The position numbers and the translations under genes are program-made. From a virus: DNA of 64,000 bases. Where the stretch lies: positions 1-64,000 of IMG/VR virus record IMGVR_UViG_3300031784_000013, one strand, 5' to 3'. Numbering within the stretch: the stretch's first letter is position 1; each line of letters begins with the position of its first letter. The notes under the pieces are model-generated. The model worked only from the letters and a program-made list of their open reading frames with translations, had not been told where the DNA came from and searched no databases. Positions 15,201 through 34,269 of the stretch are shown piece after piece.

Positions 15201-18200
15201 ATTCAACACTGTTACAAATGTCTGACCAAGTGGTAACAATTCGTTTCCACCAACAGATGTAACTACTGTTTCATAACTACCATCAGGATTTTTTCTTCCT
15301 GTTGTTCTAGGTAGGGTGGCAAGAAGAAGTTTGATAGCTGGATTCGCTTTTCTAAATGCATCAATCTTTGTAGCATCTTGATTAATCTCTCTAGTCTTAT
15401 CTTCATCATTAAGTATGATCTGATCATTCTCATCAAACTCAATTTGATACTGCTTCATGTACTCTTCGTACTTATTGAAGATATCATCCCACTCATTTAT
15501 AACCTTGTCACGTGTTTGTATTAAAGACTTATTGAGTGCTACAAACTCAGCATTTGATATTTTACCTTCTTTCCAATTATCTTTATTTGCAGAAATTAAT
15601 TCTGTAATAATTCCAGACTTTACAAAAACACCATCATCATCTATCTCTCCTATAATTTCTTCAAATAGAATATCACTCAACTCTGATCTATTGAGATTTG
15701 TAACATTGAACAAACTTTGATCAGTGGTGCCAAGAAGAGACAAAGTCTTATAAGCCATTTGTTGAATTATATCATGCTGCTCCTTGTATGGAACTGTGAT
15801 GGCTCTAAGCTCATCTTCCTCTGTAGCAAATGCATCTTCTATATCAACTATTTGGGAAGGAACATCTTGCAGAACTCCCATAGAAGGAATAGACTTAGCG
15901 TAATAACCATTACCTATTTTCTTGAATAGCTCTTCTGTATTGATGTTTGCATCCTTACCTGTAAAGAACTTCTTGATGATGTTTACAATATCAGAGAATA
16001 ATTTAACTATAAAAGGTCTTCCATCTTTTGGTTTTGCAGGAACCTTCTTGAATAATACATACTCTCTAAACTCTTCAGCAAGTTGTTCTTTGATTTGCTG
16101 AGGGGTGGCTTCTGAATACTTTACTGTCTCACCTGTAGGTCTATCAATAAAGCTTCCAGTTCTAGACTTGAATTCATTAATAACAGATTGTTGTTCTGCT
16201 GGATCAGCAAACATCTTCCATACAGCTTCGAACACCTCATGATAGAATGTTCCCACCTCTGCATTTTCATACACATAGATAGCACCATTCTTTAACATAC
16301 CCCAAGCCTGTACACCATTAGTGGCTTGGATAATATTCTTTAGTCTATACACTGGAACACCAGGAATAGCTTTCTTCCAGAAGGCTTCTATTTCATTCCA
16401 GTCTTCAGTCATGTTAGACTTAGCCTGGTTCTCAACTGCCTTTCTAAACTCTGCTCTATTACTTCTCTTAGTAGACTTAGTTGTTCTATCAATTTCTTCA
16501 GATAGTTTATTAGCCTCATCTTCAATATTATCTGCTGCTGGTTGTTTTTCAAACAAGCGAGATTTAGTTTTCTCAGCCTTAGATGGTTCTTTAGATTCTT
16601 CAGTAGCAGGTGCAGCAGGAGTGAGTGGTTTTTTTCCAAATAGTTTTGCTCTAGTCTCTGCTGCTCTTGAACTTTTTGGAGATTGTTCTGATTCAATTGC
16701 TCTTTTAACAATTTTCAAAACCATTTCCTTTATAGCAACCTTTGGATCTTCACCTCTAGATTCAAAATCTTTCATTACAGATTCCAAATCATTAGACTTG
16801 AATATTTTTATATTCTCTAATGTTGGATTTTCAGAAGGTGCTGCAAACACAATAACTTTTCCTGTCTTTTTAGATCTTAATTCATTTGGTGTTTCGCCAT
16901 CAAGAATAAAGTCAACTTCAGCCTCAGCTTCAGCAGGGGCAGCAGTTGGAGCAGGTGTAAGTTTAGTTTCCTTCTTGCTTTCAGGAATAATATAATCATC
17001 CACTGTATCAGTGGTGTAGAAGTAGATTCCAGATCTGTTTACATCATTTGGTCCCTCTAGTGGACGCATGTATGTAGAAAGAGGAAGTTGTTCTCCTGAT
17101 CTTTTCTTTCCATCAGGAGTGGTTGTAGAAAGTAAGTAGGACTGATAGGTAGGCCACATTACAGATTCAATAGTTCCATCTTCAGAGATGTTAGTAATCT
17201 GTTCGTATTCTTGTAGCTCTCTAGCAAACTTACCATTCACATTGTGATACATTCCTGATAACACAGCAATGATACTGTCCTTGTTTTGTAAAAGACCTGA
17301 TGGTGTAAATGGGAAAGACTCACCTCTTCCAGACATGAATAGTTTACCATCCTTGAAGAATACACTGCTATATCCTGGAGGTTTTAAACCAGCCTCATTG
17401 GATGGTATGCCCCAATACACAACAGACTTCAAGTAAGATATTAGTCTCTTACTTTGATCATCGTTGACACCTTTTGTTTTATCAAATGCATTCTTTGAGA
17501 ATTGTAGAATAGCATTGAAAATAGTTTCAGCTTCTTTCTGAGTGTGTTGTCTATTGTTCAATGGAACAAGTCCATTACCCATGTCAAGAAACACTCTACC
17601 TGGGGAAGACTTAGTTACACTTATGCCTCTAATGATAGATTCATCACTTGTTGCAACAGTGATTATTGGAGAGTTGTCAATATCATACTCTGTGACAAGT
17701 CCAGCTTCTTCAACACCTGTTCTGGTGTCATATAACTTCTTACCTTCTGTATCTTTATTAACTTCTGCTATACCAAATGATACATCAATAGAATGAACCT
17801 CAGAAAGGTCTTCTACTTTTAGAATTCTACTTCTCCATTCAGCATATTGTTTCGTAACTTCGCTTCTTACGTTCTCAGGAACATTGTTAGCAAACATTGA
17901 TTTATCACCATATTCTCCAGACCATTTAAGAGTCTCTAGTGGGAATACTTGGTAGATAGAGTTGTTAAGAGGATCTTGAAGTTGTTCTTCTGTAAGAGTT
18001 TCACCATTCTCACCAACCAATACAGGCTCACCAGTTGACATATCAACCATCACCATAGCAATGATTGTATTTGGATCAACTGTTTCATTAACACCGTTCT
18101 CGTCAGTTCTTAAGAAATCCATCAATCCAGGAATCAATTGATCCTGGTTCTTTGAAGTGATGTAGACACCTTTAATCTTTTTCTTTTTGTCATTATCAAA

Positions 18201-21200
18201 TGATTGGAAGTTCATTCCAAATCTTTGAGCACGTTTCTGATGAGGCTTTGCTCTATTAGTTGCAAGAGTGGCTCTAGGAAGAATGGCTACAGGCTTCTTA
18301 GCATCCACTTCAAACTCTCTGTCAAATACAGGAGCTGTTGGATTATCATTATCAGCTGTACCAAGAATTTGCTTTTTCAATGCATCACTCTTCGCTAACT
18401 TTTCTTGTTCACGAATATTAGCCTGCTGTTCTTTGTAGGCTTTCTTCATTTTTGCAATAAGCTCTTCTTTGAATCTTAGCTCATTCGCATCTGCTACAAG
18501 AGTTTCTTTTAGAGATTTTACTTCATCTAAAACTTTATTCAACTTCTCTTCATTCGCAGCAATTTCCATATCCTCAGTCTCAGCGATAAAGCTGTCAAGC
18601 TCACGCAAGTCTGAAACATAGTTTGGCTTCACCTTTAAGAAGTTAGGGTTTAACTTTAAAAATTCGTTAAACTCTGCTCCTAGGATTCTTGGAACCTTTG
18701 GATAGTTTATCTCAAACTGATCAATTAAGCTTCTTAAGAAGTCTATAGTTGAATCAATAGCAGCTTCAATCTGATCAGCAAGTCTTGTTAATGAATTGAT
18801 TTGTTTACCAGTTTCCTCTATTGATTCTTTTAGAAGTTCTGTTTCAAACTCCAACTGATCAATAATAGATTTCTCATTACCAGAAAGTTCTGTAATATTC
18901 TGAAGAGCATCTTGCAAATAAGCAAGCATCGCTTCACCCTCTTCTCTCTGAGCTTCTAGATCAGAAACTTCTTGTAACAAATCTTCTTTAGCTCTTGACA
19001 AACGCATAGCTGCATCAAGAGCCTTTCTTACAGAAGACTTTAGTCTTACAGTCTTTTTAACTCTAGCATCTACACCACCCTTCTCAATAACTTTATTAAG
19101 CTTCTCGAGTTCTTCTTCAATGGTTAAGATGTCAGCTTTCTTCTGCTTAATTGTTTTCTCTAGTTCAGCTTGCTTCTCAACAACTTCATTATTAAAGTCG
19201 TTGATGAGTTGTGAATACATTTCAGAAGGAGGTTGAGTTGCAGCAGCCTCTTTTGATTTTTGAATATCAGCTTGCTCTTCAGTAGTAAGTTTTCTACCAA
19301 GAGAGAACATTGCTTTGTCAAAACCTGGCTTAGCCTCAAAAGACTTTAGATCAATTGGCATTGATTTTGTAACTCTTTTACCCTTCTTACTCTTAGTAAC
19401 ATAAGTGAACATGAGTTTATTAGTGTCACTATCAAACTCAAGTCTACCTTTTTTAATACCACCTTTATCTTTACCCATGTTCCATTCTACAATGGTGTTA
19501 GCATTCTTCATGTAGAATGCTGCTTCAGGGTTGTTAGCAATGTTAGAAACTTTTCCAAGTCTATAATCTTGCAAAACTTCAGGGTTGATATCTCTTTCTC
19601 CTTTGTTATCTCTTATTCGAATTGTACCATCTGCATTTTGACCAACAATTGTCAGTTTTGGAAAACGATAAATTTCTTTTCCATCCGCATCGTATTCAAC
19701 AACTCTTCCAAGAAAGTATTCTTCTCCCACCTCATAAGTCTTCTCACCAGCTTTGGTTTTGATTCTAATTCTTTGACCAAGCTTCTCTTCAGGAATTACA
19801 GTGTCAGGCTTCTTCTCTGCTGGAGTGAAGTTAGATGGGTTTTCTTTTATTTCTTTATACTCATCGATAAACTTCTTTCTCTTCATACCCATCTCAACAA
19901 GTTCGAATAGGTCTTGAGTCAGTTCATCTTCATTCACTGATCCCTTTGATGTAATCTCCGTAAGTGCTTTTTCAACAGCCTCATTCGTAGGTGTGCCATT
20001 TAACAATACATCATTAAACAAATCAGCGGTGTTTACACCAGCAGTTATAAGCTTATTGTTTAGACTAGGTATTCTAATGTCGTAATCAAATATCTTAGAA
20101 GCAGCATAAGTAAGTTTATCAATAACAGGATCACTATATACACGTTCACCTTTCTCATCAACAATACCCTTATACTTTAAACTAATATCTTGATAAGCTT
20201 TATCAATATATTTTGATTGGTTTTCAATATTATTTAATCTATTTAAGAAGGATTCTTTTGTATCAGTTTCGTATGCATATCCTTCTTGTTGCAATTGCAA
20301 GAATCCCTCTGGTGTAGTAGTTAATGCTCTAAGTTCTTCGAGTTCTTGATTTATAAATTCTGTAGAAGTATATTTTGCACGATTCAACACTGTACCAAAA
20401 AGAAAATCAAACTCAAGATCTTTTGCTGCTGATACATCACCCTCTGCAATCTTTTGAGCTCTCTCTTGTTGGATTTTTTCAGAAGCGTTTATAACTTTTG
20501 CTGAATCTTTAAGCTTGTCTTTAATTAGAGAATTATTGAATATGCCAATAGCCTCATCTCTAATTGTTTTTTGTTGTCCCCCATCTCCAAACAACCCTCT
20601 TTCTTTGATAGCACCAGTCATACCAAATGTTGGTATACCAGATGTCATTATAGCACCAGATACACCACCAATAAAAAAGTTAAGAAGTCCCTCATCACTA
20701 GTGAATGCTTCTTTTGCACCATTGAAGAACAAGTCATCTAAAATAGAAGCTTCACCTGTCTCATCAAGTTTTGAGAAATAGTTTTCAGTTCCCACTTGAG
20801 CAGCATACTGAGATGCTTCTTCAAGAGCTTCAGTAGTATTAAACAGTAATCCTCCAAAGCTTCTTGCTTTGTATAAGCTTCTTGCAATTCCTTTTTGAGG
20901 AATAGATGAAACATACTTACCCTCTCTGAAAGCAATATTATTAACAATATTCTTTTCACCTTTGAAAGTAGAAGAAAATATCTTAGGAAGCTGTACAAAG
21001 TTAGAAGCTGAGAGCAAACCAATGTTTAATCCGTACACTGTCTTACCAGCACTCTCAGCAAGATTATTAATATTGGCTAGATCATCTCCTTGTGGAGTGT
21101 ATCCTTTTTCAGCAATATATTTATCAATCAAAGATTGTCTGAACTCCTGAGAAGCATTTAGGGCTTCTATACCAGCTTCACCAGCAGCACCAAATGTTGC

Positions 21201-21992
21201 TACGATTCCTCTCTCAGCACCCATCAAAGCTCTACCAGCAGCCATTCTACTGGATGCTCCTAGTTTAGTTAGTGCATTATTTATTGTAGAAAGTCTTTGT
21301 ATTTGTGGAAGAGCATTAGCAGAACCAACAGCAGTGTCAGCAGCAGCAGCCATGTTTCTTCCTTGGGCTACTAATCTACTTGTTAAACCAATAGCTCTGA
21401 AAGCACCAGACCAAGCAAAACCACTGGCAAGTGCACCTGCCGCAAAGCCAAGATTTTTGATGATGTTGTCAGCTAAGAAGTTAGCTGTTAAAAGATTTTC
21501 TGGTTCCCACCAATCACCATTTTGCTCTCTTTGTGTTTTGTAATTAGCAAAAGTTGTTTCTAAATATTCGTTATTGAAATCATTTAATTGTCTGGTAAGA
21601 TCGTTGTCAAACACTGAAGAAAACTTTCCAGTTTTTGCCCAATCATAAATACCATAAAGCAAACCAGCTGTACCATTTACAAATGTAGTTGCACCAATGC
21701 CAACAAACTTAGCAACACCATTGCCAAGTTTCTCAGCGGTTCCCTGGTATGTAGCATATAGATCTTCATTATCCATTCCTGGATAAACTTTATCATATCT
21801 ACCAGAAGAATCAAGTCCAGCAGCTGGGGTGTATGTAAATGTACTATTGCCCTGCCCTAGCTTTGGAGCACCTTGATTCATTAATGTATTGAATGTATCA
21901 ATAATCGATCTTTGATTCTCAGAAGGTGCTTGTGCTGAAGGGTTTTGATTTGGTGAACTATTTTGTCCCAATACTGCTAATTCTTCTTCCAT
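9246..21992 (-). CDS. Giant virion RNA polymerase polyprotein (crAss-like, DFDID)
   Basis: A protein of 4248 residues, the largest in the window. Residues 3324-3328 read DFDID within KVGSDFDIDKL, the metal-binding DxDxD signature of the double-psi-barrel catalytic subunit known from the crAss-like virion RNA polymerase (Cellulophaga phage phi14:2 gp66). That enzyme is packaged, ejected and transcribes early genes. Here the protein is about twice as long as gp66, so further domains are fused. Visible extras: hydrophobic Gly/Ala-rich segments at ~95-120, 170-200 and 430-455; long coiled coils ~880-1190; a degenerate zincin-like HEVFE at 1918-1922 followed by an acidic helix; a Pro/Glu-rich linker ~1690-1810. 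It is joined to genes on both sides by TAATG overlaps. The RNA polymerase call is strong; domain limits are approximate. Confidence 0.88.
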   Translation of the reverse strand: MEEELAVLGQNSSPNQNPSAQAPSENQRSIIDTFNTLMNQGAPKLGQGNSTFTYTPAAGLDSSGRYDKVYPGMDNEDLYATYQGTAEKLGNGVAKFVGIGATTFVNGTAGLLYGIYDWAKTGKFSSVFDNDLTRQLNDFNNEYLETTFANYKTQREQNGDWWEPENLLTANFLADNIIKNLGFAAGALASGFAWSGAFRAIGLTSRLVAQGRNMAAAADTAVGSANALPQIQRLSTINNALTKLGASSRMAAGRALMGAERGIVATFGAAGEAGIEALNASQEFRQSLIDKYIAEKGYTPQGDDLANINNLAESAGKTVYGLNIGLLSASNFVQLPKIFSSTFKGEKNIVNNIAFREGKYVSSIPQKGIARSLYKARSFGGLLFNTTEALEEASQYAAQVGTENYFSKLDETGEASILDDLFFNGAKEAFTSDEGLLNFFIGGVSGAIMTSGIPTFGMTGAIKERGLFGDGGQQKTIRDEAIGIFNNSLIKDKLKDSAKVINASEKIQQERAQKIAEGDVSAAKDLEFDFLFGTVLNRAKYTSTEFINQELEELRALTTTPEGFLQLQQEGYAYETDTKESFLNRLNNIENQSKYIDKAYQDISLKYKGIVDEKGERVYSDPVIDKLTYAASKIFDYDIRIPSLNNKLITAGVNTADLFNDVLLNGTPTNEAVEKALTEITSKGSVNEDELTQDLFELVEMGMKRKKFIDEYKEIKENPSNFTPAEKKPDTVIPEEKLGQRIRIKTKAGEKTYEVGEEYFLGRVVEYDADGKEIYRFPKLTIVGQNADGTIRIRDNKGERDINPEVLQDYRLGKVSNIANNPEAAFYMKNANTIVEWNMGKDKGGIKKGRLEFDSDTNKLMFTYVTKSKKGKRVTKSMPIDLKSFEAKPGFDKAMFSLGRKLTTEEQADIQKSKEAAATQPPSEMYSQLINDFNNEVVEKQAELEKTIKQKKADILTIEEELEKLNKVIEKGGVDARVKKTVRLKSSVRKALDAAMRLSRAKEDLLQEVSDLEAQREEGEAMLAYLQDALQNITELSGNEKSIIDQLEFETELLKESIEETGKQINSLTRLADQIEAAIDSTIDFLRSLIDQFEINYPKVPRILGAEFNEFLKLNPNFLKVKPNYVSDLRELDSFIAETEDMEIAANEEKLNKVLDEVKSLKETLVADANELRFKEELIAKMKKAYKEQQANIREQEKLAKSDALKKQILGTADNDNPTAPVFDREFEVDAKKPVAILPRATLATNRAKPHQKRAQRFGMNFQSFDNDKKKKIKGVYITSKNQDQLIPGLMDFLRTDENGVNETVDPNTIIAMVMVDMSTGEPVLVGENGETLTEEQLQDPLNNSIYQVFPLETLKWSGEYGDKSMFANNVPENVRSEVTKQYAEWRSRILKVEDLSEVHSIDVSFGIAEVNKDTEGKKLYDTRTGVEEAGLVTEYDIDNSPIITVATSDESIIRGISVTKSSPGRVFLDMGNGLVPLNNRQHTQKEAETIFNAILQFSKNAFDKTKGVNDDQSKRLISYLKSVVYWGIPSNEAGLKPPGYSSVFFKDGKLFMSGRGESFPFTPSGLLQNKDSIIAVLSGMYHNVNGKFARELQEYEQITNISEDGTIESVMWPTYQSYLLSTTTPDGKKRSGEQLPLSTYMRPLEGPNDVNRSGIYFYTTDTVDDYIIPESKKETKLTPAPTAAPAEAEAEVDFILDGETPNELRSKKTGKVIVFAAPSENPTLENIKIFKSNDLESVMKDFESRGEDPKVAIKEMVLKIVKRAIESEQSPKSSRAAETRAKLFGKKPLTPAAPATEESKEPSKAEKTKSRLFEKQPAADNIEDEANKLSEEIDRTTKSTKRSNRAEFRKAVENQAKSNMTEDWNEIEAFWKKAIPGVPVYRLKNIIQATNGVQAWGMLKNGAIYVYENAEVGTFYHEVFEAVWKMFADPAEQQSVINEFKSRTGSFIDRPTGETVKYSEATPQQIKEQLAEEFREYVLFKKVPAKPKDGRPFIVKLFSDIVNIIKKFFTGKDANINTEELFKKIGNGYYAKSIPSMGVLQDVPSQIVDIEDAFATEEDELRAITVPYKEQHDIIQQMAYKTLSLLGTTDQSLFNVTNLNRSELSDILFEEIIGEIDDDGVFVKSGIITELISANKDNWKEGKISNAEFVALNKSLIQTRDKVINEWDDIFNKYEEYMKQYQIEFDENDQIILNDEDKTREINQDATKIDAFRKANPAIKLLLATLPRTTGRKNPDGSYETVVTSVGGNELLPLGQTFVTVLNKLYASRDVNEMMENLKKLAEEDSNYARLYKRIAKKEWDEGNFEFKKLTTPHSLQLLSSFFSTFKKQNPEVKNVFILENGDVVVGDANLAKASSQIANDFENGIIMSARDGKGYLEYSKEQLAYVAKDSINKLKFDSSNIADNDNAMLKFLGDIGVEFTKEDFKKLEPDDKIKFREIVKGIRDSFVQKKVLMTLSKKTISVQGRLTKLALLKVKASNPEIDITYFNISNERTQSRIGVNPLSDLQDFIAKTENLNDNSVKESHYKYLVMDPFAKGSVILNKLFSKGGRKVKEDNPNFDLLTVGYVGGTKDDTTGKQKPSAKLNYVQRIVQEINLNLEGFYLNLVPGDASIEWMVKMGNHVSSKNMSMGYGKVMEIFKEYFKSEYELAKSPDRFVDPSRASEKNNLRFFYDILGKELNDEIIAFKETDAEAVYKKFAGRIETAVKKYVESRTDSFRSTLSTYNILEYDGASYSLRNVKTSEEGEMYTLSKSMNEQTLNNNLRALTVNYMIANIELHKLMYSDPYQYKDELKRIKSFSSPRQAIMSDPDSLTVGFNINAAMHNVLNAGFEKGDAGYTDLNRNYFRTVTHADVIGVVDVPGQDYDEFKETDGSGIISMKANRNLRFRAGQWTDNDELQYRHDVAYEELVKSGADQETINEFEKNNPGVQSAYTPVKPIVAGTTDNDQGYNEVVLDKFALYPLSFRIMHKINPTSNAMKLYDKMQREDIDYIVFNSGRKVGARNPHSTYNADGSFNDAPYLVEGDDRNVINIPFKIMAIQAEVPSKDKALVTRGSQMTKLLTMDFMAAGVPVDFMPNEKNFNDRYKAWNALDEAGKEQSKLYKEIKNNKELLQEMTKFGYESLLRRLGIERVDDGYKITDFSVAATTLRDEMLKREVNDNVIESLNSFLKGETILEATPAYQQVRNILYSIVDSEVVSPKISGGMKVQIPSTLLESNKIGVQEINGKKGFVSDTLNFYEKDGERVAEVMIGRWFDSPLSDEELMDYFNNDPEGKKQIAALFGVAFRIPTQNQNSIDAIKIAKFLPKEFRDSVVIPSALVAKVGSDFDIDKLSMYLKNVYKDAKGNIKLVPFEGYGQQAIDKFKALSREITEEKIAIKEEKVLKQGQAQRIFGDIALGLSSDKLAKKWIPIFRQWFANDLVDGKLPVQLIEQVFINRIEELNKNINELTTKDLDDLFIEEHANRLYKSSLENAYIESSENLIKSDENYDKLMTPNSAQQLKDLADIIAKKTVGQSYDYKNVGNMLDRNFMSSLRHAFVTGKYAIGIAAVNQTNHSLMQRFASFVDPARLDNVSPVDRKWLGDAKVKFQEFNQFDGKATMSMIKNAERSEKYPNGQFISDIIGQFIDGYVDISNGPWIMQLGATPNVASTWLFLAKIGVPIDTITYFMNQPIVRDYLRTVENAGYSWLFIDDFVDLVSQDYESGKDASSRNKIPNTKSLKDMVGKKASELSADQKTDQQFILGEFLKYAKMAEHMFLVTQGTNYDTSNFNDPYLLYKKHEQLVKARQTIISSVDEILDNSFIGTTAETLNETRDAVAEILASDRSKVRNVIEKVIKPYVNLSDRDFVKVAQRAVADLFDYAVQTNTMFRNQVFNTMISEGGYANDIVKMVREIKADPKHPMYNNHVVNTIVPQLAPEASPNSANNIKIKGATNKIYDQNSIIYSFRELKEYLEGTNQLFMYKKFEMLALYQSGLSVNRLSFTSLLPHEDFKNIYNDTIQKLEGLPNLETFATLNVFERNNWANDEIVPYEKARWINLNHPTKKPKYNPAMEYFKPKIKNAIKNGDIPPLMSRSVLGRNSDRDFFVYSWEDNITKEKKAEMRKRGDFSYIKRGFFRRVKDVDGQAFVHLSNNKEYYIYQAVNAWGARERAQEFYDVEKASLIDNGFIKVVNSNSVVNGERVKTSAPREDSVIVNLFTGKDATAAKAKTQASKEGEMKLKNGKTYPYSKINSRMLEVIGYTPEEIGKILKSIC

Positions 21993-24712: not shown

Positions 24713-24745
24713 CAAATTTAACAAATTACTTGGTTGCCCTTACAA
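24713..24745 (-). promoter_or_regulatory. Candidate Bacteroidetes-type promoter before the coiled-coil/RNA polymerase/nuclease genes
   Basis: On the minus strand TAAATTTG (plus 24713-24720) matches the TAnnTTTG -7 consensus exactly. A weaker ATTG -33 half (its TTG at 24743-24745) sits 22 bases upstream, within the accepted spacing. The start codon at 24697 is only about 15 bases from the box, so the leader would be very short. The -33 half lies inside the end of the upstream gene. Support is from consensus match only. Confidence 0.4.
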
Positions 24746-27700
24746 TGCCACCGTTTCTAATTGTGGTTGTATTGGTTGTTGTAGAACTAGCTCCTGTTGC
24801 TTTAGCAGATGCTAAAGCTAGTTTTTCAGATAGAGCTTTCTGTTCCGCAGGAGTTAGATCATTCATCATGGTATCAAACATTGCAAGAGTATTCATGTTG
24901 TTCGCTCTGAAACGCGGATCAAATCTATAGTTATAAAGATTCTCGTATGTCTGAAGAGTTCTATTCTCTAACTGATTCTGCATGTATTTAGAAGCAATAG
25001 AGCTAAGAGCAGCTTGTGATGTAGCCTTTGTATTAGAAAGAGCTTCTTGTTGTCTGCTGTATTGCTGATCAAAAGCCTGTAGATTGTTAAGGTTAGCCTG
25101 ATTTAGAAGATCTCTATTCTCAGCATACACTTTATCTTTCATAACTTGATTCAACTTGAATTGCTCACCAAGCACTTTTTGATTAGCTGCATACTTCTCA
25201 GCATTCAAAGCTGCTAGAGCAGCTGGATTGTAGCCCACCATTCTTTGAGTAGCTCTGTAATCAGCTTCATTCTCATTAATAATCTCTTGTAGAGAAATAT
25301 CAAAAGGAACGTTTAGTTGTGGTTGGATAGTCTGCACTTGTACAGGCTCAACTTGATTTGTTGCAAGAGCAAGCATTTCACCAGCCAATTGACGTGGGTC
25401 AAGAGGTTGTGCATTACTAGGTCTTAGATAAGGAATAATCTGATTAGCAAGTGTCATCCAGTCAATCTTACCTTCTTCACTTTCTGTCTGTTGATCAGCA
25501 CCAGGTCTATAGAAAGGACTGTAGAATGGTCTAATTTCTGGAAGCTTACCTAACGTTGGTTGCCAGCTAGACATCTGTGCCAATGTTTGACGAGGCTTTT
25601 TAATACCAGCATCTATAACGCTTTGAGGAACTTTAACTGGACCAAATGGATCTCTTTTAGGAACTATAGGTAATGCGTTAACAGTTACTTGTGGAAGATT
25701 TGTTGTACCAGTTTGAGCTTTTTCAATATCTACAAATCCTCCATTTTTTAATTCATTTGTACCTCGCATTTCAACAGATCTTTTTAAACCAAGACGGTCT
25801 GAAACTTTTGCATTCTTTAAATAATCGTCTATAAGTGCGCTATGCCCACCTTTCGAAACACCAAATGTTGGAAAGACCACTGGCTGATATTGGTTAGAAG
25901 ATTTTGAAGGATAGATTGGTTTAGGTAAAGATTTACCACTAACTTTTTCAAGATCTTTCAAATATCCAGCAAGCTCAGATTGTAATAACTGAGGATTATT
26001 CATCTGATCAGCAAATCCCATTTTATTAGAATTTTCGTAACCAAGAAATCTTAATTTTGAGTTAGGATCATTCTTCAATAGACTAGACATTGTTCTAAGT
26101 GACAGTGGATAACTATCACCAGATAAGCTACTTGCTGGATAAAATAGTCCAGTATTTTTTTGGTCAACATGTTGTAAAGCTTGTTTAAGCATACCTGAAA
26201 CATTATTTCTATCTGCAAATAAACTAGGTAGTAGCTCTGTAGAATACATACCTGGCTCATATTGTGCAAGAACTGGAGAATTACGAAGTCTTGCACCAGC
26301 GTACATGTCTACTATCTTATCACCAACATTTTTATAGAATGGATACGAGTAAAATTGATCTTCCATTTGACCTCTCATATCCTTATATATCATACCATCT
26401 TTTTGATAAAGTGTAGAGTAAGCATCAGGTTTTCTCGTTACACTACCGTCTACAGGATCTATTGCAATAACGTCTCTATCTATTGGTCTTTCATAAGGTG
26501 AGAAATAAGATGATTTACTTGGAGGATTATATATATCATCTCGAACTTGATTAAGTGTACGTTCACTATTAAGTTCATAATTCCATGATGTGTCATCAAA
26601 GCCAGCGGTTCTATTAGCATACTGAGCTGCTAAGTCTGGATTACCTTCTAATACTTTTACAGTTTGTGCATCAATTCCTACGTCTTTAAGTTTTTGTATA
26701 AACTCATCATGCTTATAGCCTGATAGATCAGTTAGTTTTCTACCTATATCATTTAGTGTAGTCATGTAACTTTGTGATACACCTGCTGATTGAATCTCTT
26801 TAGCCTTTGCAAGTAGTTTATTGTATTCATCAGAATATTTAGCAAGTTCAGCACTTGTAGCACCTCGTATGTTTGATTCTAAGTCCTTAACACTTCTACC
26901 AAAGTTTCTAACATCTGTAACTTTATCAACTCCTTGCATTACAGGTACATCTGCCATTGCAGCTTTTTCTAACTTCTTAACTTCGTTAACTATTCGCATA
27001 GCATCCTTAGTTTGATCAGCTATATTTGACAAGCTTATCATGTGAGGAGCAACAGCTTTCAAACCACCCATCACTGCTTGCTTACCTGGTTGTATAAGAG
27101 GTGCAGCCATCATAGAACCTATTCCAACTGCATCTAATGTGTTGAATGCCCCTTGTAAGTTTTGCTGATCAAATAATTGTTCCCCTGTTATAGGATTCAT
27201 TCCGCCAAGTGCTCCATACATAGCTGGTCCTGTAATTGGGGCAAGTGGATTTGCATAACCTGGTGCCATTAAACCAAGATCCAATAAAGTTTTTCCTGTA
27301 CCTGTTAAGTTTTGAAGAGGATCTTCTGCAAATCTAATAGTGCCTGGAACACCAGTTGCTTCATATCCAAACTTCTCAACATCTTTAACTAAACTAGATA
27401 TGTCTTTAGCAGTTTGTCCTCTCTTACCAGTGGTGGCAAGTGCTCTAGTGGCTCTTCCTATTGGACCTTTATCATTGATGTATTTTTTCTGTTCGTTAGA
27501 AAGAGATTGATAGAATGGGAATTGTTCATCGTAAGGAGTTACAGTGACTTCAGGAAGTAATGAACCTTCATACATCTTACCTTCTTCTGTAACACCTGTT
27601 TGAGCCTTCTTAATAGAAGCACCTTTCTTGGCTTGTTTAATCTTACCCTTTGCCAAAGCATCAGCCTCAAAACCATACTCTTCAGCTGTGTCATTAATAG

Positions 27701-29450
27701 CAGCCTGTAGAGAAGCAAGGTCTTGCTTCTTCTTAGCAATGTCTTTAAGCTTCATGTTAGCTCCAAGAATGTTGGCTTTGTATGATTCGAAAGAAAGAAG
27801 ATCTTGTGGCGTAATAACTTCTAAGTTATCAAGTTTCTCAGTGGACTTTTCTACAATCTTATTTTGCTTCTGCTCAGTTTTAGAAAGATCAGCAACGTAA
27901 TGTTTAAACTTCTTACCCTTTGCTTTATCATCACCCATTAGAGATGCACCAAAGCTTGGTATTTGTAGGTTGCCATATACAGTTAAACTGCTATCACCAT
28001 CTGTACCATTCTTAAGTTGTACAGCTGGTTCTCCTCTTTCCACTTCTACAGGACTGTCACCATAAGTGATGCCAATACCAGTGTTGCCTTGTCCATCAGA
28101 CTCATCGTGTGACTTTCCTCTGAACATAACAGTTTCTCCACCATCAGGTAGATATGGATTATAAGACATAGGTTCAGCATATCCACCCCAGTGGGTTTCA
28201 AGATCACCGCCCATAGCAAATTGTTCTCTTCCTGTGTACATTGCACGTTCACTAGGAGGGGTATAGTTTTTCAAATGTCCACCTGCACGTAATGTATCCA
28301 TAGTTGGATCAGGCTGCAACAATTGACTTAATTTATAATTACCAAACTGATTAATCATTTGTGGATTTATCATACCACCATCTCTCACATGAGAGTAGTT
28401 TTGTTGTTGCAATCCTTGGACACCCTGATTGAAAGCCATTGATGTAATGTTTCTATCAGTAACATCTCTTGCTTGTTGTGTCTTCTCAGCCTTTTTGTCA
28501 AGAAGATCACCAATTTTTTCACCAGCAAACTTTCCAACCATTCCTCCTAATGGACCAAAAAATACATTACCCACTGTACTCCCAACACCACCTCCAAGTT
28601 TACTAGCACCACTAGGACCATATCCTTTTGGATTTCCAATACCAACAGTTAATTTTGAAGCAGCATCAAATCCACCTTCATTTCCAAACTTAGTTAGGAA
28701 GTCTTTTCCAAACTGAGCTTGTTCTAAGTCTGTGTAAATAGTGTTAGGAGCAAACGTGTTTGCTATCTCTGTACCATTCTTTGCTAGAACAGTTCCTGTG
28801 CCATAGATTGGAAAGAACTCTGATCCAGTGTTTACATTATCTTCTGGACGAACATATCTTCTCTGAACTTGTTCTGGACGTGTCATAGAAGCTTGAAGAG
28901 CAACATCACTAACACCAGCCATTTGCTGAGCTTCCTTCATGATGTTTTTCTCATCCTTCATTTGCTGGATTCCTCCAACTATGTTTCCAACATTCTGAGC
29001 AAAGACAGCTGGTCCACCAGCTTTATCAATACCTTTGCTAATGCCACCAAGAATTGCACCCCCCGCAGCCTTCTTTAACTTCTTACCATTCTTAGCACCA
29101 GCTCCTTTGGAAGCACTACCTATTGCATTTCCAAGTTGGGTGAGAGCATCAGTGAATCCTGATTGTTTACCACCAGTCTTCTCTTCATAAGAAGCAAGAT
29201 CCATTGCTTGCTTATTACGCATATCTTGAGTTGATCCAGTGACAAACATATCATTCTGGTCATACAACTGCTGAAAGTTCATTGGTTGAGGGTTAAACTG
29301 AGGAGCTGTACTACCTTGAATCATAGCTCCCACTTGAGCTTTCTTCAAAGCTTTCCCATGAATCTTCATAAAAGATTCTTCTGTAGGAAACTTCTTGTAA
29401 AATTCCTTCTCAGACTTAACACCTGCTATCTTTAAAATTTGAGCCTTCAT
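24726..29450 (-). CDS. Giant ejected-type virion protein with glycine-zipper segments
   Basis: A protein of 1574 residues. Glycine-zipper-like stretches occur at ~130-160 (GGAILGGISKG) and ~275-312 (LGGGVGSTVG, GPLGGMVGKFAG), a type of sequence that can insert in membranes. Residues ~420-480 hold the Gly/Pro-rich sequence FAMGGDLETHWGGYAE and further GG motifs. Two boundary motifs are present: AQTG then LPEVTVTP (~615-640) and AQTG then LPQVTVNA (~1240-1260). The C-terminal ~250 residues are Gln/Asn/Ala-rich helices. No catalytic site was recognised in the ~640-1240 part. It lies directly after the lysin gene (one base apart) in the giant-protein operon. Inference: an ejected protein that helps build a path through the cell envelope; it may be cut into several chains. 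Confidence 0.65.
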   Translation of the reverse strand: MKAQILKIAGVKSEKEFYKKFPTEESFMKIHGKALKKAQVGAMIQGSTAPQFNPQPMNFQQLYDQNDMFVTGSTQDMRNKQAMDLASYEEKTGGKQSGFTDALTQLGNAIGSASKGAGAKNGKKLKKAAGGAILGGISKGIDKAGGPAVFAQNVGNIVGGIQQMKDEKNIMKEAQQMAGVSDVALQASMTRPEQVQRRYVRPEDNVNTGSEFFPIYGTGTVLAKNGTEIANTFAPNTIYTDLEQAQFGKDFLTKFGNEGGFDAASKLTVGIGNPKGYGPSGASKLGGGVGSTVGNVFFGPLGGMVGKFAGEKIGDLLDKKAEKTQQARDVTDRNITSMAFNQGVQGLQQQNYSHVRDGGMINPQMINQFGNYKLSQLLQPDPTMDTLRAGGHLKNYTPPSERAMYTGREQFAMGGDLETHWGGYAEPMSYNPYLPDGGETVMFRGKSHDESDGQGNTGIGITYGDSPVEVERGEPAVQLKNGTDGDSSLTVYGNLQIPSFGASLMGDDKAKGKKFKHYVADLSKTEQKQNKIVEKSTEKLDNLEVITPQDLLSFESYKANILGANMKLKDIAKKKQDLASLQAAINDTAEEYGFEADALAKGKIKQAKKGASIKKAQTGVTEEGKMYEGSLLPEVTVTPYDEQFPFYQSLSNEQKKYINDKGPIGRATRALATTGKRGQTAKDISSLVKDVEKFGYEATGVPGTIRFAEDPLQNLTGTGKTLLDLGLMAPGYANPLAPITGPAMYGALGGMNPITGEQLFDQQNLQGAFNTLDAVGIGSMMAAPLIQPGKQAVMGGLKAVAPHMISLSNIADQTKDAMRIVNEVKKLEKAAMADVPVMQGVDKVTDVRNFGRSVKDLESNIRGATSAELAKYSDEYNKLLAKAKEIQSAGVSQSYMTTLNDIGRKLTDLSGYKHDEFIQKLKDVGIDAQTVKVLEGNPDLAAQYANRTAGFDDTSWNYELNSERTLNQVRDDIYNPPSKSSYFSPYERPIDRDVIAIDPVDGSVTRKPDAYSTLYQKDGMIYKDMRGQMEDQFYSYPFYKNVGDKIVDMYAGARLRNSPVLAQYEPGMYSTELLPSLFADRNNVSGMLKQALQHVDQKNTGLFYPASSLSGDSYPLSLRTMSSLLKNDPNSKLRFLGYENSNKMGFADQMNNPQLLQSELAGYLKDLEKVSGKSLPKPIYPSKSSNQYQPVVFPTFGVSKGGHSALIDDYLKNAKVSDRLGLKRSVEMRGTNELKNGGFVDIEKAQTGTTNLPQVTVNALPIVPKRDPFGPVKVPQSVIDAGIKKPRQTLAQMSSWQPTLGKLPEIRPFYSPFYRPGADQQTESEEGKIDWMTLANQIIPYLRPSNAQPLDPRQLAGEMLALATNQVEPVQVQTIQPQLNVPFDISLQEIINENEADYRATQRMVGYNPAALAALNAEKYAANQKVLGEQFKLNQVMKDKVYAENRDLLNQANLNNLQAFDQQYSRQQEALSNTKATSQAALSSIASKYMQNQLENRTLQTYENLYNYRFDPRFRANNMNTLAMFDTMMNDLTPAEQKALSEKLALASAKATGASSTTTNTTTIRNGGIVRATK

Positions 29451-29451
29451 A

Positions 29452-32400
29452 TCAGTTGTATTTATCCAGCCAGTTATCCTTGTCTGGGTTATTTGTAAAG
29501 TTAAGTAATTGATTTAGTTTTTTCATAGGTTGGGCATCTAATTGATTGATTCCCACGTCACCACCATTTCGTTTGGTCTTAGGTAAAGATCTAACATAGT
29601 CAGCTATTGACTTAGCCTCTTCTGGAGATATCTTCTCTGTTTTCCATTCAATCTTTTCATTTTTAGATTGATCTTTTCCAAATGATTTTGGTGCAAAGCC
29701 TTTCACTTTATCAATGTAATCAACATCATTTCTTTTCAAGTAGTAATTTACAAATCTTGGCTCAAGTGCTTTCCCTGGTGCATTGTGCATCAAAGTTGTC
29801 AAATCAATAATCTGGTCTTCAGAAAGATCTGGATACTTAGCCTTCAATTTATGATAGTTATCAACAGCTAATGCTAATGAAGATTTAACCTGACCTTCAA
29901 AAGAGTCTAAGTCGTATTTGTAGAAATTACCTCTTTCAGATAAATCTTTTTGTTGAAATTCACCAACGCTTCTAGGTGTTCTGTACGGACTATAATCAGA
30001 ATCTTCAGAGTCAAGGCTTTTTACAAAGTCTTGATATGAGCTAAATTCTTTTTGAACATTATGAGCGTTCTTATTCCAATAGTCCTTTTTCCAATTATCT
30101 TCTTCACCAAAATTGTAATCATAGATTTCTCTAGCTCTTCTTGCATAGGGTAGAAGACTGTCTGGAACAATATCTTTTGGATTAGATGCAAATTCACCAA
30201 ACTTAGTTTCTTGCCCAGCAATTCCTATTTGATTCATTATCAATTTATTGAACGAATCAATTGGCATGTTAGAACCTTTACCAAGATCACTGTAGACAGT
30301 CTTATAGACATCTGCATATCTTTGTAAATTTTTGTCTGGAGCCAATTCATTTTTAACATTCAATCCATCTACTTTATTATTAAAGAAAGTTAAGTTTGAG
30401 GTATCAAATTTTGAATATTGACCAGAGTAAGGATTTTTACCTTTTAATACATTGATCTTGTCTTGGTTCTCCTTTTTTATAGATGTTACTTTATCTGGAT
30501 CATATCGATATGTAATTCCTCCATCAAAAGTTTTATAACCCTTTTTATATCTGTTCATCAATTCAGATTCAGATACATCTTCAATTTCAACTTTGTCTCC
30601 TCCTGCGTTGTTTGCAACCTTAAAATACTTTTTCCCATCCTTCACAAATTCATTAACAATCAAAACTGCATGATTTGGATAGAGATCATTTTCATTTCTA
30701 AAATCAACTTCTCCAGGAAAGCGTGAAAATGTATTACCTTTCTTTCTAGCATATTGGAATATATCACCTACACCAAATCCTTCCTTCTCAGGATTAGATC
30801 TGTAATATCCTTCGTCCATTGCATTGTCTGCAAATGTTGCATTTCCAGTGTATGTATCTTTAGTCTGACCTTTGTCAAATTTCACACCTGCAATATTTGA
30901 AACCATATAACAAACTCCATTTATACAATTCATATCTCCCTCAGAGGTGTCGATATTATTGTCTTTGTAATATGGAGTGGTGTAGTTTTTTGATTTCAAA
31001 ACATCATCATACATATTGAACTTGGACAAGTAATCTTGTCTTGAAACTTCTTGTTGAGCAGGAGTATCTTTACCTGTTTGTGCAACAGGAAACTCTGTAA
31101 CCTTCTTACCATTGAACTTGTAATTCTTTCCTGGTTGCATAAGCTTTGTGTCACCAGTATCAGAAATACCAAGAAGTGGTTCGTACACTCCTTCCATTGT
31201 AATGTTGTTACTACCTATCTCAACAGGCTTTCCCCAGTTATCTGGATTCCAATAACCTAGATTATCTTTAGTTATACCACCATTCTTTTGCTTCTGTACT
31301 GGTTGTTGATTTTGCAATGCAGATATTGTAGCAGCTGCACCACCAGCAATTGGTAATGTTGCAGAAGGAAGATTATTTAAAGTTTCACTCAAGATTTTGA
31401 AATTCTTAGGAGTTTTCTCCATAATCTCATACAATCTCAAGATGCTTTTATTACCTCCTGTTTTATTATAAAGATCATAATGATCCTCTATCATTTGAGG
31501 AGTTATTTCATCATAGTAATCTTTTATTTTTCCTCTTCGTAATAAACTTTGTCTAACCTCAGCAGCAAAAGGTAGTTTCTCCATTCCTCCACTACCTGTT
31601 AGGAAATAATCAAGAGCTGGATAAAAACCATATCCCCACTGTTGATTTGATTTTGAAAAATCAACATCCTCTAACTGTCCTTCTGAGAGAGATGAGTCAG
31701 GAACTGAGCTTGGTTGTTTTTTTAATTCTAGCTCAGAAAGTTTATCATCAAGGTTTGTTCGCCTTCGATTTCTTTGAAAAATGTGGCCCATTTCATGATC
31801 AAATATACGTCTTATGTCTCCTGGAATTAGATTCTCACCCATGTACATTGCAGCAACTGAACCAGGACCATATCCTCCATCTCCACCTCTACGACCTGCA
31901 AATGCATTATCTGCATCGATGAAAGGATCATTATTTTTGATAAACTTTAAGTTTCTAATTTCCTCGATTATATCATCAGGTTTTAGTTTTTTGAAACCAC
32001 TAAGCTCACCTGATTTAAGACCATGCAAGAAAAACTCACCCCATGATTCTACAGGTTTTCCCCAAGATTTATGATCTCTCCCAAAATTTTTATTTATCAT
32101 GTATTGGAGTCTTCTTCTACCTTCTGGAGTATCAATTCTATCAATAGTTTTTTGCTTTAATTCTTGAAGCAAATCCATGTGAGGATGATCCAATTCTGTA
32201 TATGGAAGTTGTGGTTGATTAGGAACAGTTGATGCGTTAGGAGTGGAAGAGGCTAATACATTATCTGCCATCATTTGAGGAGATGGTGCTTGTGAAATAG
32301 CTATATTGTCAATGCCTTTAACAAGGTTTTGACCAATACCTTTTAAACTTAGTCTGCCAATATCATCAATCATACCTACACCAGGTATAGCATTGACTGG

Positions 32401-34269
32401 GTCTCCAAGAGCATCCAATCCAAAATTAAAAGCATTCTTTCCAAATGATGAATAGCTATCTAGCCAACCACCAGGTTTTTGAAATCCCCATGCTTGAGAA
32501 GGTGTTTGTTCTTTTCCTGTAATCAACTGCATCATCTCCTTTTGTGGAGCACCCATCAGCTCACCAACATGTCCATAGAGATTTGCCATTCCCTGAGACA
32601 TTGCATTTTTTATACGTTCATCCTTACCCTCTACAACAATCTCAGGAAGTTCCATACCTTCATAAATCTTCCCACCTTCTTGCATACTCTTTGGTTTCCA
32701 ATCAAGGCCATTCTGATAGAATCTCATTTCTTGACCATTCTGTGCAGAAGCCATTGTCTTCTTTGCATATTTACCTTTGCTAGGAGCAGCACCAGCTACA
32801 CGTGCGTATGTGAATCCTACAGAGCCAGGCATAGAAGCACCATTCATTGCAATAGGCGCAACTTCTTCATTACCTTTGGCAATAACATTCATCAACTTAA
32901 TTAAACCGCTTTCGCCAGCCGCTTGAATAGTTCTATCGAGTGATTGATTACCTTTTAGTTTTTCCTTGGCTCTTTCTAAATCTTCTTTTGTAAACTCTTT
33001 CCCTTTTCTAATATCATAAACCCCTTTATCAAACATTAGATATCGAAGAGCATTCAAGTCACTTTTGAATTCTTGAGGATCATTTCTTATATGTAAGGCT
33101 TGAGATCTTCTTATATCATCTTTTTGATTAATAGGTTGATAATTTCCTGTAACGGGATCTATAGTATAAAATGATTTATTAAACTCTGAAAACGGCAACA
33201 TTGTAGACGTTATTAACGAATCTTCAAAAGCAGTAGTATTATCTATTGCATGTCCAATTTCATGAGCTAGAACAGTTTCAAACATTTCAGGAGTCTTAGT
33301 ATGATCTGGATGTATTTCAATACCAAGTCCTGTATAGCGAGAAGCAGGTCGTCCTTTATAATAAGATGGTTCAATTTGAATAAATCCAGGCTCTTGAACT
33401 GATTCTAATGCACCCATTCTTGATTCTCTAGCACTAGATAGCCATTCTCCCATTTGAGGACGTATAGTTGATCCTTCTTTACGATAGATAGCGTTCCCTG
33501 GCACGTCTTCATAGTATCCAGTGTTCTTCATACGTCTTTCGTACTCTGGACTAGAAACCCACGACTTGTAGAATTCAGCCATGTCCCATCCTGGAATATC
33601 TGTATTATCTCCTGACTTTGGTATATACTGGGGATAACCAGTTAATTTATCAGGATCATTATACTTAGTCATTATTGGAGCTGATACAACAACTTCAGGA
33701 AGGTCATACTCCTTCGCAATGGTTGCATCCTTTTTTTCCTGAATCTTTTTATTCATGTATTCAGAAACACCATTCTGAGCAATTGGAATAATTCCACCTT
33801 GCTGGAAGTCTAATACACCTGTTCCTCGTTTGTAATTTTTTGCAAACTTTTTAGCTTTTCTATCTGTAGGAAATTCAATGTAGCTGTTTGTGCTATCAGC
33901 ATAATTGTAAGCATCATCTCCTAAGTACTTTAACTCTCCATCAATATTTCTAATAGTAGGATAAACCCTTCTATCAGCAGATTCCATAAAATGAGTGCTT
34001 CTTCCTTCTTGACCTGGGATTTGAATAGATCCGTAATTGGCATCATACAATCCCTTCACCCAATCAAGATTCTTATTTGCGTTTAGTATTTGATCAATCT
34101 TCTTACCACGCTGGGCAATTTCTCCTCCATACTCAAATTGTCCTCCCCACGCAGGGGAATAGTTTCTTCCTTCTGTATTATATCCTACACCAACAAATCC
34201 TTCAGGAAGGCTAACGTTTGATTCGTTAGCGTTGTCTGCTTTACCAAAGTTGTCTAACCATCCTTTCAT
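29452..34269 (-). CDS. Four-domain ejected lysin/protease polyprotein
   Basis: A protein of 1605 residues. Seen in order: a Gly-rich N-terminus; AQNG (164-167) and LPEVVVSAP (190-198); a zincin with HEIGH at 336-340 and a possible third ligand near E400; PGSVGFTYARVA (481-492), nearly identical to the capsid N-terminus; LPEIVVEG (541-548); a second zincin with HEMGH at 825-829 and E904; AQTG (1063-1066); an NlpC/P60 or CHAP-like papain-fold segment with C1115/C1120, H1200 (NHAVLIV) and N1220; and a lysozyme/transglycosylase-like C-terminus with a candidate catalytic E1354 (GIAGQETKFG). Inference: a cargo protein that opens peptidoglycan and cleaves proteins during entry. The zincin motifs are clear; the NlpC and lysozyme calls are by pattern. 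It abuts its neighbours within one base. Confidence 0.7.
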   Translation of the reverse strand: MKGWLDNFGKADNANESNVSLPEGFVGVGYNTEGRNYSPAWGGQFEYGGEIAQRGKKIDQILNANKNLDWVKGLYDANYGSIQIPGQEGRSTHFMESADRRVYPTIRNIDGELKYLGDDAYNYADSTNSYIEFPTDRKAKKFAKNYKRGTGVLDFQQGGIIPIAQNGVSEYMNKKIQEKKDATIAKEYDLPEVVVSAPIMTKYNDPDKLTGYPQYIPKSGDNTDIPGWDMAEFYKSWVSSPEYERRMKNTGYYEDVPGNAIYRKEGSTIRPQMGEWLSSARESRMGALESVQEPGFIQIEPSYYKGRPASRYTGLGIEIHPDHTKTPEMFETVLAHEIGHAIDNTTAFEDSLITSTMLPFSEFNKSFYTIDPVTGNYQPINQKDDIRRSQALHIRNDPQEFKSDLNALRYLMFDKGVYDIRKGKEFTKEDLERAKEKLKGNQSLDRTIQAAGESGLIKLMNVIAKGNEEVAPIAMNGASMPGSVGFTYARVAGAAPSKGKYAKKTMASAQNGQEMRFYQNGLDWKPKSMQEGGKIYEGMELPEIVVEGKDERIKNAMSQGMANLYGHVGELMGAPQKEMMQLITGKEQTPSQAWGFQKPGGWLDSYSSFGKNAFNFGLDALGDPVNAIPGVGMIDDIGRLSLKGIGQNLVKGIDNIAISQAPSPQMMADNVLASSTPNASTVPNQPQLPYTELDHPHMDLLQELKQKTIDRIDTPEGRRRLQYMINKNFGRDHKSWGKPVESWGEFFLHGLKSGELSGFKKLKPDDIIEEIRNLKFIKNNDPFIDADNAFAGRRGGDGGYGPGSVAAMYMGENLIPGDIRRIFDHEMGHIFQRNRRRTNLDDKLSELELKKQPSSVPDSSLSEGQLEDVDFSKSNQQWGYGFYPALDYFLTGSGGMEKLPFAAEVRQSLLRRGKIKDYYDEITPQMIEDHYDLYNKTGGNKSILRLYEIMEKTPKNFKILSETLNNLPSATLPIAGGAAATISALQNQQPVQKQKNGGITKDNLGYWNPDNWGKPVEIGSNNITMEGVYEPLLGISDTGDTKLMQPGKNYKFNGKKVTEFPVAQTGKDTPAQQEVSRQDYLSKFNMYDDVLKSKNYTTPYYKDNNIDTSEGDMNCINGVCYMVSNIAGVKFDKGQTKDTYTGNATFADNAMDEGYYRSNPEKEGFGVGDIFQYARKKGNTFSRFPGEVDFRNENDLYPNHAVLIVNEFVKDGKKYFKVANNAGGDKVEIEDVSESELMNRYKKGYKTFDGGITYRYDPDKVTSIKKENQDKINVLKGKNPYSGQYSKFDTSNLTFFNNKVDGLNVKNELAPDKNLQRYADVYKTVYSDLGKGSNMPIDSFNKLIMNQIGIAGQETKFGEFASNPKDIVPDSLLPYARRAREIYDYNFGEEDNWKKDYWNKNAHNVQKEFSSYQDFVKSLDSEDSDYSPYRTPRSVGEFQQKDLSERGNFYKYDLDSFEGQVKSSLALAVDNYHKLKAKYPDLSEDQIIDLTTLMHNAPGKALEPRFVNYYLKRNDVDYIDKVKGFAPKSFGKDQSKNEKIEWKTEKISPEEAKSIADYVRSLPKTKRNGGDVGINQLDAQPMKKLNQLLNFTNNPDKDNWLDKYN

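Follow-up and report, generated by a model that had tools for sequence, protein, structure and literature searches.

The locus analyzed here raises the question of what two short motifs, AQxG and LPExxV, do in P0001 and P0002, two large proteins in which they recur. The window, that is, the whole 64-kb (64,000-nucleotide) stretch of DNA that was analyzed, comes from a virus record of 111,142 bases. Genes in the window gave matches to the crAss muzzle, to ring proteins 1 and 2, to the capsid protein of crassviruses, to a P22-like portal, and to a crass-type terminase (family matches in the virion cluster: PF25731, 1.1e-31; PF16510, 1.5e-13; PF24228, PF25702, and PF23898; TerL, phrog_6681). The window is from a crAss-like phage with a Crassvirales-type virion gene cluster, in which the muzzle, ring, capsid, portal, and TerL families occur together. 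A 725-aa protein encoded among the virion genes (43611–45788, − strand) contains five DUF285 stretches (PF03382, E = 4.5e-165). The genes for P0001 (29452–34269, − strand; 1605 aa) and P0002 (24726–29450, − strand; 1574 aa) are placed between the muzzle gene and the giant ORFs at 4336–21992, and crAss001 has gp45, gp46, and the virion RNA polymerase subunits at the corresponding place (PMC10172136). At full length, neither protein matched any family above the cut-off in PHROGs, Pfam, or NCBIfam, and sequence searches of the PDB with the capsid protein, P0002, and the backbone described below gave nothing significant. Relatives were collected as 80 loci around the muzzle gene, which makes the sample uneven; motifs were counted in 91 cargo ORFs (90,778 aa) from the window and these relatives. 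Our analysis suggests that P0001 is probably a virion carrier, in which a five-piece backbone offers four sockets for exchangeable enzyme domains and QxG joints serve as flexible hinges.

Backbone pieces and sockets of P0001

Backbone HMMs were built from the linker pieces of near-bare versions of the protein. They identified P0001 as a carrier-type cargo protein with the layout M1(427)M2(-6)FYQ(469)M3(509)Ct, where the gaps between pieces are given in aa; sockets A, C, and D are filled, and socket B is empty. All features of P0001 and P0002 given below are on the − strand. Piece M1 (aa 1–49, 34123–34269), delimited by the HMM and by alignment, ends in NYSPAWGGQFEYGG and is followed by the socket A cassette (aa 50–476, 32842–34122), which contains a zincin-like domain, D1, with the sequence HEIGH. 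This cassette is absent from the related locus L001, where the counterparts of aa 1–51 and 477–1605 are contiguous and form a natural empty site; D1 and its LPEVVVSAP are therefore a removable insert. Piece M2 (aa 477–512, 32734–32841; PGSVGFTYAR...YAKKTMASAQNG), recognized by its HMM and its likeness to the N-terminus of the capsid protein, is joined to piece FYQ (aa 513–534, 32668–32733), the region of QEMRFYQNGLDWKPKSMQEGG. The gaps between HMM matches then delimit the socket C cassette (aa 535–993, 31291–32667), whose domain D2 contains HEMGH (31783–31797), and the socket D cassette (aa 1067–1571, 29557–31071), to which no function was assigned. Between the two lies piece M3 (aa 994–1066, 31072–31290; GYWNPDNWGKPVEIGSNNITMEGV...VTEFPVAQTG), which proteins of phages Lbo-JY46 and phi4:1 also have close to their N-terminus, and the protein ends with piece Ct (aa 1572–1605, 29455–29556; LNQLLNFTNNPDKDNWLDKYN), defined by comparison with relatives and by its HMM.

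The order M1-M2-FYQ-M3-Ct was kept in 47 of the 50 proteins with three or more HMM-detected pieces, and the three exceptions had only an extra match of the WLDKY type (the end motif) before M1. Among 157 gaps between adjacent pieces, 91 were shorter than 40 aa, none measured 40 to 89 aa, and 66 measured 93 to 880 aa. This strictly bimodal distribution indicates four sockets, each either empty or filled; socket A was filled in 29 of 42 cases, B in 13 of 41, C in 13 of 37, and D in 11 of 37. The backbone stands almost bare in L012 (321 aa), L017 (204 aa, perhaps truncated by the end of the contig), and L035 (179 aa), where nearly the whole protein is linker, and the consensus of a 50-sequence alignment from which insert columns had been dropped is the backbone itself. 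Judged from these alignments, the variable gene behind the muzzle gene is one family with a conserved backbone and four fixed sockets.

In some carrier proteins, as in L035 (16807–17343) and the consensus of A5, M1 is preceded by a Cys-rich N-terminal extension (CTCGWSW...CHECGKDN). Another crass-like carrier, encoded by L088 (14,539 bases, − strand), has LDEVVVTAPRRR after an M2 of the GMMYAR type, with several AQxG joints and two HExxH-type domains.

Joints at the cassette borders

AQxG occurred 255 times in the 91 cargo ORFs, compared with 39.8 times in shuffled sequences. In the window, AQ[NT]G is found at aa 164, 509, and 1063 of P0001, and AQTG at aa 616 and 1245 of P0002; the AQTG at aa 1063 of P0001 and an AQRG at aa 52 stand without an LPE partner. 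Within the listed ORFs of the virion gene cluster, repeated AQxG is confined to P0001 and P0002, and the giant ORF and a 1636-aa ORF have a single stray match each. Taken more widely, the site reads roughly G-x-x-[ILFV]-P-K-A-Q-[DNT]-G in 140 nonredundant contexts, and at the position before QxG, clear enrichment is limited to A, F, M, and Y. The backbone pieces end in WGGQFxxGG, SAQNG, Q-x-G after FKPK, and VAQxG, or more generally in [AFMYS]QxG. We found [AFMYSK]QxG at 60 of 72 left cassette borders (a count partly built in by the module models) and at 23 of 72 right borders, compared with 3% of random 20-mers inside inserts. Homology between cargo proteins likewise ends within 15 aa of A[QK]xG at 44% of the right ends, compared with 12% at random. 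The earlier note on this DNA had placed the motifs always between domains and offered a domain-joining site as one reading; the relatives bear this out, because insertion borders fall on the motifs and cassettes come and go exactly at the AQxG that ends a backbone piece. AQxG is thus, as far as sequence comparison can tell, a C-terminal signature of backbone pieces at which cassettes are gained, lost, and moved.

The same kind of joint is found in P0002, by gene order a C1/gp45-like cargo protein, which is of a conserved family (A3) and has one filled socket. Its N-terminal module (aa 1–41, 29328–29450; MK.QILKIAGVKSEKEFYKKFPTEE.FMK.HGKA.KKAQxG) is nearly invariant in about 40 divergent phages, ends in KKAQxG, and resembles a leader or targeting peptide. 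The variable region of the family starts after AKxGxxIxKAQxG, which in P0002 is the joint AKKGASIKKAQTG (aa 607–619, 27594–27632), and the sequence downstream differs between phages. Here the D5 cassette (aa 620–1244, 25719–27593), a domain of 600 aa starting with LPEVTVTPYDEQ, follows, and a copy of the joint, AQTG (aa 1245–1248, 25707–25718), lies in frame at its right border, as seen with the relatives. The P0002 homologues of L006, L009, and L036 lack D5, and in L006 the counterparts of aa 1–634 and 1289–1574 are directly joined. D5 is, however, present in the P0001-type gene of L002, L006, and L009 (47–61% identity), which shows that the domain has passed between these genes, its borders marked by the motifs. 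P0002 is probably a C1/gp45-type cargo protein, as suggested by a gene order like that of crAss001 and a weak, low-complexity match to gp45 (hhalign, 65% over 60 glycine-rich columns). A profile comparison of P0002 with phi4:1 gp40 gave a meaningless result, and orthology is therefore claimed from gene order only.

It is possible, but rather doubtful, that the joints are maturation sites at which a phage or cassette-borne peptidase cuts [I/L/V]-x-[K/S]-A-Q-x-G and frees each cassette with a short tag at its N-terminus. The preferences in the 140 contexts resemble those of a recognition site (hydrophobic at −3, K/S/R at −1, then A, Q, and G at +3), as does the narrow choice of residue before QxG, and unrelated leader-like modules (the N-terminus of P0002, M2, and M3) all end in the site. 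Zincins of polyvalent proteins have been proposed to process their own polypeptides, and DdrB of phage P1 is cut before packaging (PMC5512222). However, cleavage of bare backbones would yield fragments free of cargo, and the fixed order persists with nearly no cargo at all. In addition, the virion-cluster ORFs tested gave no match to a protease family, the structure and proteomics paper on crAss001 mentions neither a protease nor cleavage (PMC10172136), and the N4 virion RNA polymerase, which carries a zincin domain of this sort, is packaged uncut (PMC5512222). A zincin acting in cis was dropped as the sole cause of the joints because they persist without any HExxH, namely in 24 of the 43 proteins with M2.

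The motifs might also be scars or homology patches that promote recombination and have no role in the protein. The DNA of the joints is 85 to 96% identical between genomes although the neighboring cassettes are unrelated, and in L029 the synonymous divergence of M2 and FYQ is 12 to 17%, compared with 42% in the muzzle gene, which points to some recent exchange. Homing-endonuclease-type genes adjoin the carrier gene in L039 (16702–17238, HNH_3/NUMOD4) and L083 (17590–18570, NUMOD3/NUMOD1); unassigned ORFs of similar appearance are present in L035, L077, and L081. By contrast, the synonymous changes of most joints in the nearest relatives are about as frequent as those of the muzzle gene and leave the residues unchanged, and Q-x-G joints are still present in phi4:1 and in Leptolyngbya phage Lbo-JY46, for which no similarity was seen at the DNA level. 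The joint peptides are 80 to 96% identical in most comparisons; this identity, together with synonymous divergence that is mostly muzzle-like in the nearest relatives and lower for M2 and FYQ in L029, indicates that selection on the protein and some DNA exchange both act. An origin of the motifs as scars with no protein role is unlikely.

The M2 piece and the LPExxV tag

The N-terminal arm of the major capsid protein (MAIQTIPGLTGFTYARVASMDKRA; 53039–53110, − strand) shares the core of M2 by sequence comparison. The N-terminus of the capsid protein (IPGLTGFTYARVAS) and M2 have PG..GFTYAR in common, and in 1170 ORFs the pattern G[FY].[YF]A[RK] was found only in the capsid protein and the cargo M2 protein types. 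The capsid arm shows hardly any variation. One could imagine from this likeness that the backbone is a loading rail: M2, as a copy of the capsid arm, would dock it inside the capsid at the binding place of the arm, one partner (a docking surface or a protease) would recognize the QxG joints, any enzyme in a socket would thereby be packaged and delivered, and the LPExxV tags would pass the released enzyme to a partner in the host periplasm. We consider this chain of steps quite improbable.

Four motifs of the LPExxV type were quoted in the earlier note, and all are present in frame. LPEVVVSAP (P0001 aa 190–198, 33676–33702) stands 22 residues after the AQNG of aa 164–167, LPEIVVEG (P0001 aa 541–548, 32626–32649) lies near the start of the socket C cassette and 28 residues after AQ[NT]G, LPEVTVTP (P0002 aa 632–639, 27534–27557) lies at the left edge of D5 and 12 residues after AQTG, and LPQVTVNA (P0002 aa 1252–1259, 25674–25697) lies at the right border of D5 and 3 residues after AQTG. 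The proximity of the two motifs thus holds, but the spacing is 3 to 28 rather than the 5 to 25 residues given earlier. Equivalents of LPQVTVNA are LDEAVVTGTR in L036 and LDEVAVSAS in L006. The pattern L[PD]E.[VTA]V[TSE] occurred 12 times in the 91 cargo ORFs, compared with 0.06 times in shuffled sequences, and was absent from 406,738 aa of other same-strand ORFs. Six LPExxV copies were located in the first 45 aa of inserts (3,285 aa) and four in the remainder (23,320 aa), a 10-fold enrichment (p = 5e-4). The motif stands before unrelated cassettes (D1, D2, D5, and the SYTMDSL domain of L029 and L095) and also occurs in the more distant crass-like cargo of L049, L083, and L088; LPEVEVVA is present in a tail-lysozyme protein of csAssE-Sib, a phage of the human gut. 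Conservation of the V-x-V core, which the earlier note had named as a check, was not observed: the Pro-Glu and Val residues are not generally kept across relatives, and only the QxG joint is. By its position, LPExxV is a cassette tag, mostly near the start of the plug-in, and lies outside the backbone.

The tag has the sequence pattern of bacterial TonB boxes. When bacterial sequences were searched for in-frame L.EV.VTAP[RS], 37 of 66 matches were in long ORFs behind a segment like a signal peptide, where the form L[PD]EV.VTA occupies the TonB-box position. A scan of viral contigs for L[PD]EV.VTAPR gave 12 stretches, compared with 3 in a codon-permuted control, a modest excess, and several of these matches are unrelated tail proteins. 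L[PDE]EV.VTAPR was also seen in unrelated phage proteins of L085, L086, and L089–L094, among them an alanine-rich 802-aa protein, proteins of 324 to 397 aa with the pattern near the N-terminus, and a 246-aa protein. The earlier note had proposed a TonB-box mimic, by which host TonB would hold or pull the ejected domains in the periplasm. The sequence likeness stands, the tag recurs before unrelated cassettes, and cleavage, if any, would leave it 3 to 28 residues from a new N-terminus; such a role is nevertheless very unlikely, because the tags are internal (aa 190 and 541 of 1605 in P0001, aa 632 and 1252 of 1574 in P0002) and far from the mature N-terminus, are borne by cassettes of a few lineages and absent from most relatives and their cassettes, and belong to cargo thought to exit through the phage tail, whereas the TonB boxes of colicins and receptors serve import from outside. 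In the open literature searched, one paper alone brought crAss-like phages, cargo proteins, and TonB together, and its subject is tail spikes; the link of crassviruses to TonB-dependent receptors in that study comes from computational docking and involves the tail spike, not the cargo (PMC10569736).

Cassette contents and comparison with known systems

The cassettes of the 50 proteins include SLT transglycosylase (3), Amidase_2, LysM, ART-PolyVal, and DUF6782 metallopeptidase domains, among others, and their PHROGs matches are endolysin, transglycosylase, lytic tail protein, and "internal virion protein with endolysin domain"; most cassettes, including all those of the window, have no confident family match. 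Several unlike activities per polypeptide (SLT, Amidase_2, LysM, ART-PolyVal, DUF6782, HExxH) are thus a property of the family, and P0001 itself contains the two HExxH sites, HEIGH and HEMGH, and weak Pfam matches (M48/Zn_peptidase_2, below the cut-off). D1 matches the C-terminal domain of Cellulophaga phi4:1 gp41 (hhalign, 98.2%, E = 2.8e-14), which is annotated from MS/MS as a virion protein and has YAQAGG in front of the D1-like domain. This homology suggests that P0001 is also located in the virion. AlphaFold models were weak (mean pLDDT 50 for D1 and 44 for D5, with shallow alignments); the flanks of D1 are low-confidence coil in its weak model, a Foldseek search of the PDB with this model found no fold for D1, and no fold was obtained from the model of D5 either.

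The backbone, its fixed order, the empty and filled sockets, the movement of cassettes, and the positions of the motifs can be read from the sequences. For the carrier, most likely, the backbone would pack in the virion, its pieces serving packaging, and [AFMYS]QxG would be a flexible joint maintained by protein-level selection. Acting as hinges, the joints would let the folded domains unfold and pass through the tail one by one, and the sockets would accept whatever enzyme helps at entry, so that the cassettes, exchangeable domains of peptidoglycan transglycosylase, amidase, LysM, zincin-like, and ADP-ribosyltransferase type, would act in the host envelope. P0002 would be a C1-type cargo protein with a socket of the kind found in P0001, and LPExxV a short tag toward the start of certain cassettes. 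Phages of the crAss-like group are among the commonest known viruses, and a carrier with four defined sockets makes the loading and delivery of their protein cargo a testable question. Because the carrier is seen both empty and filled, it becomes possible to ask which piece is required for packaging, to look for cuts at the joints, and to see if a harmless reporter placed in a socket enters the particle. The backbone also provides an annotation rule by which the highly variable gene behind the muzzle gene can be recognized as one family.

Capsid-targeting leaders of the T4 type are short modules with a fixed end motif (LxE) at the N-terminus of internal head proteins. The module of aa 1–41 of P0002 is similar to these leaders and to prohead protease sites in ending in a fixed motif, but the motif is AQxG, not LxE, the modules also stand between domains, and the virion-cluster ORFs tested include no recognized prohead protease. 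The TonB boxes of TonB-dependent transporters and colicins share the pattern L[PD]EVxVT, a likeness by sequence alone; unlike them, the phage tag is internal, cassette-borne, restricted to certain lineages, and part of a cargo protein. In crAss001, the neighborhood is the same, from the muzzle through gp45 (C1) and gp46 (C2) to the giant virion RNA polymerase subunits, and gp45 carries AxxG motifs; however, gp45 has neither LPExxV nor the M1-M2-M3 backbone, and no gene stands between the muzzle gp44 and gp45, which is the place of P0001 in the window (PMC10172136). The closest known kind appears to be the polyvalent proteins, which are likewise large, are thought to be injected with the DNA, show strong domain mosaicism, and mix zincin-like, peptidoglycan-cutting, and ADP-ribosyltransferase domains (PMC5512222). 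The main text of Iyer et al. (2017) mentions neither linkers nor crAss phages (PMC5512222). In contrast to the polyvalent proteins, one five-piece backbone, four fixed sockets, and the QxG joint recur in the present family, and the backbone can stand nearly bare.
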